Shown piece by piece: positions 2,509 to 59,545 of a DNA stretch of 64,000 bases. The position numbers and the translations under genes are program-made. The notes beneath the pieces were generated by a model, which saw only the letters and a list, made by a program, of their open reading frames with translations, was not told where the DNA came from and searched no databases. This DNA comes from Brevibacterium sediminis (GTDB lineage: Bacteria > Actinomycetota > Actinomycetes > Actinomycetales > Brevibacteriaceae), in the NCBI RefSeq assembly GCF_013623905.1, contig NZ_JABKDD010000006.1, positions 62,001 through 126,000 of the forward strand. The letters run 5' to 3'. Each line of letters opens with the position of its first letter. The stretch's first letter is position 1.

Positions 2509-2618
2509 AGGTCACCATCGGATGCGGCCACCGAATCCAGGTCACTATCGGATACTTTTCGCACGCAGAAGTATCCGATAGTGACCTAGATTCGAGTTCG
2601 GATGTCCGATAGTGACCT
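2509..2618. repeat. Palindromic repeat family A, locus 1
   Basis: A perfect inverted repeat with 19-base arms, AGGTCACTATCGGATACTT at 2539-2557 and its complement at 2569-2587, around an 11-base loop. A solo copy of the right arm (TCCGATAGTGACCT) follows at 2605-2618, and a diverged left-arm copy (AGGTCACCATCGGAT) precedes at 2509-2523. The same unit, again with an 11-base loop and a trailing solo copy, occurs at 56432-56519. Both loci lie between convergent genes, so a bidirectional terminator is the simplest reading, but the solo copies are not explained by that. Confidence 0.85.
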
Positions 2619-3013: not shown

Positions 3014-3790
3014 TCAGTGATCGCGGGTGCGGGCGAAGGAGAATCCGGCCGACCCCCATCGCATGAGCGGACGCGGCACCACAGGGGCAACGAGCGCGGC
3101 AATGCGATATCCCCACCCCGGCACAGAGACGACCTTCCCCGCCCGCGCATCACGCAGCGACTCCCGCACCACCTGATCGACGCTGAGCCAGATCAGGCCG
3201 GGTCCCGGACGCTCCACGCCGAGGCGGCTGTGGAATTCCGTCCGGATGAAGCCAGGCAGAACGGCGGTGACCGTCACCGGGCCGCCCCTGAGTTCCCCGG
3301 CGAGCGCCTCGGTGAAGACCAGAGTCGAAGCTTTCGACGCGGCATACTGTCCCATCGTCGTCACCGCCGCCAGCGAGGAGACGTTGATGATTCCTCCGCG
3401 ACCGCGGGACTGCATGCGCCGAGCCGCTGCCAGCGACAGCTCTCTCACCGCCCCGGCGAGCACCCGATCGAGCGCATCGAGCTCAGCAGCATCGGTATCC
3501 AGCAGTGTCCCGCGCAGCCCGAAGCCGGCATTGTTGATGAGCACATCGATCGGCTGCGTCGCGATGATCTCGTTGACCGCGTCGATACCGTCACGGGTCG
3601 ACAGATCGGCCACGGCCGCCTCGGCGTGGGTACTCTGCGTGGTTCGCACCTGCTCGGCCAGCTGATTCAGCCGGTCCGCGTCCCTGGCGACCAGGACGAG
3701 GTCGTAGCCCTCGGCGGCCAGGGTGCGGGCATAGCCGCGCCCCAGCCCGGAGCTCGCCCCGGTGATGAGGGCACGCGGCCGCGGATTCAT
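3014..3790 (-). CDS. Short-chain dehydrogenase/reductase
   Basis: A 258-residue classical SDR. The cofactor loop GASSGLGRG lies at residues 11-19, the NNAG motif near 86, the catalytic serine in NVSSLAA near 137, and YAASK near 149-153. The C-terminal 60 residues, ending in RPLMRWGSAGFSFA, resemble the extended tail of membrane-associated SDRs acting on lipid-like substrates. It overlaps the upstream thioesterase gene by four bases, so the two are co-transcribed and translationally coupled. The substrate is unknown; pairing with an acyl-CoA thioesterase suggests fatty acyl metabolism. Confidence 0.88.
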   Translation of the reverse strand: MNPRPRALITGASSGLGRGYARTLAAEGYDLVLVARDADRLNQLAEQVRTTQSTHAEAAVADLSTRDGIDAVNEIIATQPIDVLINNAGFGLRGTLLDTDAAELDALDRVLAGAVRELSLAAARRMQSRGRGGIINVSSLAAVTTMGQYAASKASTLVFTEALAGELRGGPVTVTAVLPGFIRTEFHSRLGVERPGPGLIWLSVDQVVRESLRDARAGKVVSVPGWGYRIAALVAPVVPRPLMRWGSAGFSFARTRDH

Positions 3791-11193: not shown

Positions 11194-11281
11194 TGGACAC
11201 CGACCGAAATTGCGCGTGACTACGGACCGCTTGCGCCTCTTCACACCGGGAAAATCTGCAATACTGAAACCTACTGGTAGG

Positions 11282-11336
11282 TAAGTGTGCGCAGATTGCC
11301 AGGAACCCGCCGGTTTTGGGCAATCTGCGCACACTT
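11282..11336. repeat. Palindromic repeat family B, locus 1
   Basis: Perfect 18-base arms, AAGTGTGCGCAGATTGCC at 11283-11300 and its complement at 11319-11336, with an 18-base loop that has a small inner AACC/GGTT stem. The left arm and its flanks are repeated identically at 59472-59492. Here the element lies between two genes read in the same direction (pheA and the FAD dehydrogenase) and may end the pheA transcript. Confidence 0.85.
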
Positions 11337-11379
11337 GACGTCGGTTCACTAGCCGACAGAGACGACAGAGGAGTCGACG

Positions 11380-20365: not shown

Positions 20366-20396
20366 GGCTCCCGGCTGGGGCGTGCTGCGCGGAATC

Positions 20397-20456
20397 AGCC
20401 CAGTTTGAGTTGAATAGCACCTATTTGAACATGGGCTATTCAACTCAAACTGGGCT
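20397..20456. terminator. Palindromic repeat family C, locus 1 (22-base arms)
   Basis: Perfect 22-base arms at 20397-20418 (AGCCCAGTTTGAGTTG...) and 20435-20456, with a 16-base loop. The right arm and flank (CTGGGCTGTTTCGC) and the loop (CCCATGTT on the minus strand) resemble the element at 26071-26177. It lies between clpB and the convergent HTTM gene and probably terminates both. Confidence 0.8.
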
Positions 20457-20486
20457 GTTTCGCTGACCGCAGCGCGGCACAGCACA

Positions 20487-26038: not shown

Positions 26039-26070
26039 GCAACGGCAGACGGGCTGAGTCAGTCGGCAAC

Positions 26071-26177
26071 AGCCCAGGAAAAGGTGAACAGCCCATGTTT
26101 GAAACAGGGCTGTTCACCTTTTTCTGGGCTGTTCGCAGAATCCGCCGCTTTCTGGGCTGTTCGCAGAATCCGCCGCT
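26071..26177. repeat. Palindromic repeat family C, locus 2, with 28-base tandem duplication
   Basis: Arms at 26071-26094 and 26107-26130 pair over 24 bases with one mismatch (AGCCCAGGAAAAGG opposite CCTTTTTCTGGGCT), loop ATGTTTGAAACA. The right arm runs into two exact adjacent 28-base units, 26122-26149 and 26150-26177, each starting TTCTGGGCTGTTCGCAGAAT. It lies between convergent genes (YtxH and cardiolipin synthase). Confidence 0.85.
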
Positions 26178-56109: not shown

Positions 56110-56415
56110 ATGACCGCAGACAATACAGAAGACACCGGTTCGACCGGCGAGGTCCAGCTCGACAACGGAGTGTTCCGGGTGACGAAGTGGACGATCCGCC
56201 CCGACGGCGTCATCCCGATGCACAAGCACGAGTACGAATACGTCGTCGTGCCGATGGTCACGGACACGATGCTCGTGCGCAATTCGGATGGCACCGAGAT
56301 CCGCGCCGAACTCGAGGCCGGCGTCTCCTACACGCGTCCGGCAGGATCCGAGCATGAGGTCTCGAACCCCGGAGGCAGCGCCGACGTCGTCTTCGTCGAG
56401 GTCGAACGTCTCTGA
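56110..56415 (+). CDS. Small cupin-domain protein
   Basis: A 101-residue single-domain cupin. GVFRVTKWTIRPDGVIPMHKHEYEYVVVPMV carries the first cupin motif with H38 and H40 and a Glu as metal ligands; the second motif is in YTRPAGSEHEVSNPG with the last His. Metal-dependent small-molecule binding or dioxygenase-like chemistry is possible but not assigned. GAAGGAGATCACC precedes the ATG. It ends convergently with the glutamate-cysteine ligase gene. Confidence 0.85.
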   Translation: MTADNTEDTGSTGEVQLDNGVFRVTKWTIRPDGVIPMHKHEYEYVVVPMVTDTMLVRNSDGTEIRAELEAGVSYTRPAGSEHEVSNPGGSADVVFVEVERL

Positions 56416-56431: not shown

Positions 56432-56519
56432 CCAAAACTAGGTCGCTATCGGATACTTTCTGCGTCGCGAAGTATCCGATAGCGACCTAGTTTTGGCGCT
56501 GAGTATCCGATAGTGACCT
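56432..56519. repeat. Palindromic repeat family A, locus 2
   Basis: Perfect 27-base arms at 56432-56458 and 56470-56496, with an 11-base loop; the inner part GTATCCGATAGCGACCT is the family A arm (one base different from 2571-2587). A solo copy, AGTATCCGATAGTGACCT, follows at 56502-56519, as at the first locus. It lies between the convergent cupin and glutamate-cysteine ligase genes. Confidence 0.88.
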
Positions 56520-56540: not shown

Positions 56541-58022
56541 TCAGCGAGTGGGGATCTCCCAGGTGTGGACGGGCTTCCCTGTCGCCTGGTTCGCGAGGTA
56601 GGCATCCATCATCGCCGTGATGCCCTCGGCGCGTTCGGGCGAGTCCTGGCGGCTGCCGGGCGCGAGGCTCTCGAGGGCCTTCAGCTGCCAGGTCGCACCA
56701 TTGACGCGGCTTTCGGCACGGCCTTCGATGATCGACATGTATTCGTCGATGACGTCCTTGTCGATGTTCAGTCGCGAGAGTCCGCGCCTGGCCTGCGGCG
56801 CGAGCACATCGGTGACGAGGTCGGCCACGCCGATGCGTCCGATCTTCGGCCAGGTCACCCGGGCCTCGATCCCATCCTTGGCGCAGGCATTGAAGTTCTC
56901 CTCCGCCTCGGCGAATGACATCCGCGACCACACGGGACGGTTCTCCCCGACGAGGAACTCGGCCAGGCCGTAGTAGAAAGCGGCGTCGGCAACCATGTCG
57001 ACCGGGGTCGGACCGGCCGGAAGCAGGCGGTTCTCGACACGGATGTGCGCGCCGCCGTCGCCGGAGTTGTAGATGGGGCGGTTCCAACGCCACACCGTGC
57101 CGTTGTGCAGATTGAGTTCGAAGAGCTTCGGAGCGTCGGCGGCACGGAATTCGACGAAGTCCTTGATCTCGGGCAGCAGCGGCGGGAAGTAGCGGACGTT
57201 CTCCTCGAAGAGGTCGAAGACGCTGGTGATCCACCGTTCGCCGAACCATACACGGGGACGCACGCCCTGGTTGACGAGTTCGGGCGTGCGGGTGTCGATG
57301 GACTGCGCGAAGATCGGGATCCGGGATTCGTGCCACAGCTTGCGGCCGACGAACAGCGGTGAGTTCGCTGCCATCGCCACCTGCGCCCCGGCGATCGCCT
57401 GCGAGGCGTTCCACGCGTCGGCGAAACGGTTCGGCGCCACCTGCAGGTGCAGCTGCATCGACGTGCAGGAGGATTCCGGAGCGATATCGGCGAACTCCGC
57501 CTTGTACCGCTCTTCACGACCGAGCTCGATGCGGACGTACTCGCCGCGGGCGTCGATGACCGAGTTGCTCAGCGCCTCGTAGCGGTTCTCCTCCGTCATC
57601 CACTTCTCGTCGGTGAGGAATTCGGTGGTCAGGGTCGGCAGGGTGCCGATCGACACCACCTTGAGTCCGTCTTCCTCGGCGGCCTTCTGCGCTTTCTCCA
57701 AGCGATGAGCGACACCGGCCTCCAAGGTCTTCAGCCCCCGCCCGGCCACTTGGAGCACCGGATGGTTGAGTTCGAGGTTGAAGCCGCCGATCTCGGACTG
57801 ATACTCGTCATCGAGTCGATCGAGCACCTCCTTGTTCCGCAGGCTCGGCTGATTGCCCTCGCCGACGAGGTTGAGCTCGAGTTCGAGCCCGATCGTGCCC
57901 GCCGATTTGAAATCCGCATGACGAAGGTAGGTATCGAAGAGCTCGAGATTCTCCGCGAGCTTCTCCCGATACAGTGTGCGTTCCTCCGGCGTGTACCGCT
58001 TCGAGCTGACTGCCTCACCCAT
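56541..58022 (-). CDS. Glutamate-cysteine ligase family protein
   Basis: A 493-residue GCS2-type carboxylate-amine ligase. TIGLELELNLVGEGNQPSL has the metal-binding Glu cluster, IGGFNLELNHPVLQ and SCTSMQLHLQVAPNRF follow, and LFELNLHNGTVWRWNRPIYN and HIRVENRLLPAGPTPVDMVAD complete the active site. The family joins glutamate to cysteine with ATP. Actinobacteria usually make mycothiol instead of glutathione, so the product may feed ergothioneine (EgtA-like) or another gamma-glutamyl compound; no egtBCD genes are near. The start ATG at 58022 gives MGEAVSS; the frame opens to 58118. Confidence 0.85.
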   Translation of the reverse strand: MGEAVSSKRYTPEERTLYREKLAENLELFDTYLRHADFKSAGTIGLELELNLVGEGNQPSLRNKEVLDRLDDEYQSEIGGFNLELNHPVLQVAGRGLKTLEAGVAHRLEKAQKAAEEDGLKVVSIGTLPTLTTEFLTDEKWMTEENRYEALSNSVIDARGEYVRIELGREERYKAEFADIAPESSCTSMQLHLQVAPNRFADAWNASQAIAGAQVAMAANSPLFVGRKLWHESRIPIFAQSIDTRTPELVNQGVRPRVWFGERWITSVFDLFEENVRYFPPLLPEIKDFVEFRAADAPKLFELNLHNGTVWRWNRPIYNSGDGGAHIRVENRLLPAGPTPVDMVADAAFYYGLAEFLVGENRPVWSRMSFAEAEENFNACAKDGIEARVTWPKIGRIGVADLVTDVLAPQARRGLSRLNIDKDVIDEYMSIIEGRAESRVNGATWQLKALESLAPGSRQDSPERAEGITAMMDAYLANQATGKPVHTWEIPTR

Positions 58023-58217
58023 AGGACTAGCAAACCACAGACGGCCGGGTTTGTGCGCGGCCGCGGTCCACAGGCCATTCCGCACGGAGACCGCGATCCT
58101 TCCCACGGCGCACCGCACACCGATTCGGCCGCGGTGCGGACAAGCTGCGCATCGGGTCCGTCCTGCATCATTCGGACACCTGCGATGTCGGCAACCGGCC
58201 TTCCGTAGACTCGCCCT

Positions 58218-59390: not shown

Positions 59391-59471
59391 AGCGGAGCGG
59401 CGAGCTGCTGCCTTTCGCTGCTGCCGTAGTTCCCAGACACCGACAGTGCGCCGGGGCCTTCCCTCCTTAGT

Positions 59472-59526
59472 TAAGTGTGCGCAGATTGCCAGTTTCGAGC
59501 CGAAAATGTGCAATCTGCGCACAGTT
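59472..59526. repeat. Palindromic repeat family B, locus 2
   Basis: Left arm AAGTGTGCGCAGATTG (59473-59488) pairs with CAATCTGCGCACAGTT (59511-59526) with one mismatch. The left arm and its flanks (59472-59492) are identical to 11282-11302, and both right arms run into TTGAC. It separates the convergent M20 and FkbM genes. Confidence 0.85.
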
Positions 59527-59545
59527 GACTGTCGGCAGCAGGACT

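Follow-up and report, generated by a model that had tools for sequence, protein, structure and literature searches.

A clade-specific, dispersed palindromic element of Brevibacterium with phased units that may be protein recognition sites

The window analysed here, a stretch of 64,000 nucleotides from Brevibacterium sediminis to which all positions below refer, carries two arrays of a palindromic repeat, family A, which apparently represents small non-coding elements dispersed in Brevibacterium and undescribed so far. A literature search returned no paper that treats Brevibacterium palindromes, and a paper on the B. aurantiacum mobilome is silent on them. The arrays have a constant architecture and spacing, a conserved motif, and a bias towards gene ends; they are restricted to a clade and have been copied recently. 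They are best explained as a REP/MITE-like dispersed element whose units are on balance probably the recognition sites of a putative sequence-specific DNA-binding protein.

With up to three mismatches, GTATCCGATAGNGACCT matches the window seven times, against 0.24 matches expected by chance from dinucleotide shuffles (none of 100 shuffles reached seven). The matches start at 2509 and 2539 (minus strand) and 2571 and 2602 (plus strand) in locus 1, and at 56440 (minus), 56472, and 56503 (both plus) in locus 2. Locus 1 (2509-2618) consists of four arms in the nested order << >>: a left accessory arm (2509-2525, minus) with the motif TCCGATGGTGACC and 10/10 fixed bases, a central left arm (2539-2555, minus) and a central right arm (2571-2587, plus), both with the motif TCCGATAGTGACC, and a right accessory arm (2602-2618, plus) located 31 bp from the central right arm. 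Its central inverted pair, a hairpin with a loop of 7-11, is matched by the covariance model R1 at 2532-2594, and folding allows two nested stems to form from the four arms. Locus 2 (56440-56519) has three arms in the order < >>, namely a central left (56440-56456, minus) and a central right arm (56472-56488, plus) with the motif TCCGATAGCGACC, and a right accessory arm (56503-56519, plus) with TCCGATAGTGACC, again 31 bp from the central right arm. The perfect hairpins with 11-base loops that an earlier note had read at 2539-2587 and 56432-56496 are borne out by the arm coordinates (2539-2557/2569-2587, 19 bp; 56432-56458/56470-56496, 27 bp). Its description of each locus as an inverted pair plus a solo copy is accurate for locus 2, but locus 1 contains a fourth copy on the left (the minus-strand arm at 2509-2525).

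Convergent ORFs flank both loci, with their 3' ends towards the element. Locus 1 lies between a 198-aa gene without a Pfam hit (1838-2434, plus), the last of an Asp23/DUF6286 cluster, and a short-chain dehydrogenase gene (3014-3790, minus), and locus 2 between a Cupin_2-like gene just below the Pfam cut-off (56110-56415, plus) and a GCS2 glutamate-cysteine ligase-like gene (56541-58118, minus). Immediately to the right of locus 1, about 128 nt of intergenic sequence (2648-2775, minus) are almost identical in about 25 species of Brevibacterium. Its minus-strand fold (-77.3 kcal/mol, z -6.6) comprises four stable hairpins, three of them with GGGGA-type loops, and ends with CCCCGGGGUUCUUGU; it has no Rfam match and is a candidate for a conserved small RNA gene. 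For the window as a whole, Rfam gives 0 hits above the gathering threshold and only a chance hit at a permissive threshold.

The earlier note had considered two related loci only, which proved to be wrong: family A is clade-wide, with about 14 loci in this genome. The covariance model R1, built from an alignment of 13 hairpins of the genome, finds strong matches at 14 loci, on both strands in every case; the possibility that only the two window copies exist thus fails, because the family is not confined to them. Beyond the 14 loci, C11:195927 was counted among the strong R1 matches, and one weak match has an E-value of 1.25, Infernal E-values being rough. R1 matches occur in 15 of the 59 genomes sampled first: the source genome, 13 congeners, and one genome of another genus, in which the match is weak and on one strand only. 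The count of copies in relatives that had been proposed as a check gives about 8-38 in each of ten other Brevibacterium genomes listed in full (about 38 in G034, 21 in G033, 19 in G007, 22 in G023, 13 in G008, and 20 in G077, and about 8-20 in each of five complete genomes), orthologous elements being counted in several species. As the copy number among congeners ranges from 0 to 38, the genus cannot depend on the function of the element. Of 57 Brevibacterium genomes, 16 contain a motif pair at 29-33 bp, against 0 hits for the reversed control pattern. The exact hairpin pattern, searched for in about 85,000 species, is found in Brevibacterium only (linens, permense, epidermidis, renqingii, sp. 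S111, S22, and a MAG) and nowhere outside the genus. Contig ends are found within about 350 bp of several family A elements (G007 C35 and C39; G034 C26, C31, and C38; G023 C82, C118, and C234; G033 C7); the long hairpins may break short-read assembly, or they may adjoin repeats.

The architecture is constrained. All of the 161 clusters compared contain a central inverted pair, with the arms ordered <> in 65, <>> in 50, <<> in 34, <<>> in 9, <<<> in 2, and <>>> in 1; the order >< never occurs among them. The core spacing is identical in 143 of the 161, with the motif centres of the central pair 34 bp apart, and 60% of the elements have one or more extra units outside, in the same outward orientation and 31 bp away (a few at 30 and 32). 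A distance of 31 bp amounts to about three helical turns; it could also be a duplication unit instead of a helical phasing. The motif is an asymmetric 13-mer with two fixed blocks, and the unit consensus, TCCGNNNGYGACC-N4-TTY, is asymmetric and about 20 bp long. Both central and solo units maintain T at +6 and a pyrimidine at +7 after GACC, so that recognition probably extends over about 20 bp. Strong conservation at arm positions 1-5 is confined to the central pair. In 488 kb, the exact motif occurs 353 times inside clusters and six times in isolation.

Accessory copies carry TCCGNNNGYGACC in an all-or-none manner and are not remnants. At the accessory offset of 29-33, the fixed bases are present 10/10 on 92 sides and 9/10 on 13, with the others near background; at the control offset, no side exceeds 8 of the 10. 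Solo copies differ from the neighbouring arm by 3.1% at fixed and by 38.9% at free bases (n=101). In the orthologous locus 1 of eight species, fixed-base divergence is 0% in the left, 0% in the right, and 5.6% in the solo arm, as opposed to 32% in the loops, 46% in the spacers, and 40% in the upstream flank. Since the fixed bases of the solo copy are conserved while loop, spacer, and flank diverge, this copy is functional or recently functional and not debris. Of the two causes previously put forward for the identity of distant arms, shared selection is supported by the all-or-none conservation, and spread by the genome-wide copies and by identical cores in unrelated flanks.

Such cores, about 58-67 bp long, are found within single genomes (G000 L040/L042, G033 L050/L160, and G077 L198). 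The pair L040/L042 and its G034 orthologues L226/L215 match within each genome and differ between the genomes, a sequence pattern that looks like concerted evolution, and L226 equals L040 plus exactly one left unit, i.e., a 31-bp gain or loss. Presence/absence and replacement of family A elements are seen at orthologous sites, and the gene junctions of the two window loci carry other palindromes or none in other Brevibacterium species. The orthologues of loci 1 and 2 (L076-L135) contain unrelated palindrome families depending on the species (e.g., GCATCAGCGGGTC..., CCTGTGGGTGGATCC..., and TAGGTGGGCGAAATGG...); the occurrence of different families at one junction suggests rapid replacement at gene ends.

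The arms of the central pair also covary in most genomes, with a concordance at free positions of 0.80 against 0.57 expected. Between solo copies and their neighbours the concordance is 0.69 against 0.58 expected, a small but significant excess, as tandem duplication would leave. Covariation of the central arms is not needed by a pure protein-site model and can be explained by inverted-repeat correction. On the sense strand in codirectional contexts, discordances between the central arms comprise 50 G-U and 46 A-C; as G-U is not preferred over A-C, RNA pairing is seemingly not what sets the sequence. This parity argues against selection for an RNA hairpin and is consistent with inverted-repeat correction of the DNA; given the covariation, selection for pairing in DNA or RNA may still play some part. 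The small-RNA idea raised in the earlier note gains no support from discordances that lack a G-U preference in the sense direction.

According to a crude GC3 gene call, which makes the assignments approximate, the 161 clusters are mostly intergenic, and the proposed mapping relative to gene ends reveals a preference for 3' ends. Genes flank 155 clusters on either side; of these clusters, 78 lie between convergent, 65 between codirectional, and 12 between divergent pairs, whereas the window's own gene pairs, taken as the null, number 13, 29, and 13 (about 24%/24% convergent/divergent). In six complete genomes (G077, G032, G019, G012, G066, and G072, with non-independent orthologues), all 81 elements lie outside the terminus-proximal fifth of the chromosome (KS p = 4e-7). 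The few copies of family B are origin-proximal as well. Because of this and of the non-independent orthologues, the origin-proximal bias of family A may mirror core-gene regions rather than function.

In the mechanism favoured here, a putative sequence-specific DNA-binding protein would recognise each unit and assemble on the phased array. At gene 3' ends RNA polymerase could be held or halted by the complex, or the array might simply be tolerated. Copies of the central hairpin would reach new sites, or pass between existing ones, and so spread through the genome, and outer units would be gained or lost when the 31-bp direct repeats recombine or slip. Intrinsic termination would perhaps be a side effect; termination leaves the solo copies unexplained. 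Family E palindromes (GnCCAnnnCGnCCACYTAAG; L089, L088, L084, and L192) count in favour of recognition by a protein: their motif is different and their inverted spacing is fixed at 41-42 bp, but in three cases accessory copies follow at a direct spacing of 31-32 bp, parallel to family A, so the architecture may represent a wider class. It is not general to palindromes, as 31-bp direct copies occur in families A and E only, with 116 other hairpins having copies at scattered distances. A second palindrome family (AAGTGTGCGCAGATTGCC) is present in the window at 11280-11339 and 59469-59530, with at least four copies in the genome; on C16, one copy and a family A element are about 90 bp apart.

Bidirectional intrinsic terminators share with family A a hairpin at convergent gene ends and A/T-rich flanks, and it is conceivable, though rather unlikely, that the central hairpin and its short T-rich tails stop RNA polymerase both ways, the outer copies being slippage by-products. 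The excess of convergent contexts (78 of 155, with 12 divergent), the arm covariation, and very stable folds near gene 3' ends (z about -9 to -10) agree with this, as does the tail TATATTCGG, with T at +5 in 75% and at +6 in 91%. However, the T-tract seems weak (a mean of 3.8 T in the 8 nt after GACC, the longest run usually 2-3), G-U is not preferred over A-C on the sense strand, and outer copies keep the same bases as the hairpin arms, yet are unpaired in three-arm elements. In codirectional contexts, the solo copy is found upstream about as often as downstream, and a terminator scan, which covers loops of 3-8 only and is weak evidence here, calls none at locus 2. The point made previously that a plain terminator needs no solo copy is upheld by the all-or-none conservation of unpaired solo copies. 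The window also contains a third family, long palindromes with a strong T-tract at 20392-20461 and 26068-26133, whose relatives read CACCTTTTTCTG after the inner stem; these are probably real bidirectional terminators, and after the one at 26068-26133 come direct copies at a spacing of 28 bp.

The units might instead be the transposase-binding sites of a DNA transposon that is now absent or unrecognised, with their bases kept by recent or ongoing transposition. This MITE-like origin is conceivable, though again rather unlikely, and is partly compatible with the preferred explanation, as the putative protein would then be the transposase. It would account for identical cores in unrelated flanks, for presence/absence and replacement at orthologous sites, and for the restriction to a clade. 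Against it, all 30 tandem-motif loci read from a double-motif search of 57 genomes belong to elements with an inverted partner, and none of them is an autonomous transposon with the motif at its ends; no clean target-site duplication is visible at locus 1 or around the copied cores, where clean empty sites are few; and, in contrast to idle copies, locus 1 is retained in eight species and its motifs are conserved.

Within the protein-site reading, a more specific and distinctly less probable version is that an undescribed actinobacterial protein on 31-bp phased asymmetric sites might form a roadblock at gene ends that works in either direction, or might organise the chromosome and be excluded from the terminus, parallel families such as family E being the sites of paralogous proteins.

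As for an extrachromosomal origin of family A, plasmids gave no match and viral contigs gave 0 matches to the hairpin pattern; the double motif has four viral matches, about the chance estimate, none with an inverted partner alongside. Among known arrays, bacterial interspersed mosaic elements (BIMEs) of enterobacteria combine inverted and direct palindromic units in mosaics at 3' gene ends. Family A shares this arrangement, but its unit and host phylum are different and its 31-bp geometry is fixed. Cluster A mycobacteriophages, another actinobacterial system, have stoperators, asymmetric 13-bp sites dispersed over short intergenic spaces, where a monomeric repressor that has two DNA-binding domains binds and stops elongation (PMC9283540). 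The likeness to the dispersed asymmetric 13-mers of family A may serve as an analogy of working only. Stoperators are repressor-bound and oriented with transcription, whereas family A is chromosomal, with inverted and direct arrays in which inverted pairs are always present, so that site orientation does not track transcription.

REPINs, described in Pseudomonas fluorescens, are hairpin-forming extragenic inverted doublets accompanied by extra single copies that decay (PMC3116915), and family A resembles them in its extragenic inverted doublets (present in all 161 clusters), higher-order clusters, clade specificity, and spread. Movement of family A as REP/REPIN sequences by a RAYT (Y1) transposase is nevertheless highly improbable, and excluded in the genomes searched, as Y1_Tnp (PF01797) occurs in 0 of 57 Brevibacterium genomes (control genomes were positive), the unit consensus lacks the GTAG/CGTC tag, and the solo copies, found either at 10/10 or at background and conserved at a fixed 31 bp, do not decay as single REPs do. 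By the tests run, family A is a member of neither the REPIN nor the stoperator class, and its arrangement resembles REPIN/BIME mosaics.

In the published surveys covered here, REP-type palindromic repeats are tied to RAYTs or to other phyla, and one of these papers (PMC3733652) does not mention Actinobacteria. Family A is a clade-specific family of Actinobacteria without a RAYT, in which the geometry is fixed and the motif is under selection in unpaired copies. That one palindrome family has taken the place of another at an orthologous gene junction points to a fast turnover of these elements at the gene ends of Brevibacterium. The consensus TCCGNNNGYGACC together with the 31-bp phase constitutes a concrete bait for finding the putative protein, and with family A protein recognition could be distinguished from the function of the hairpin.
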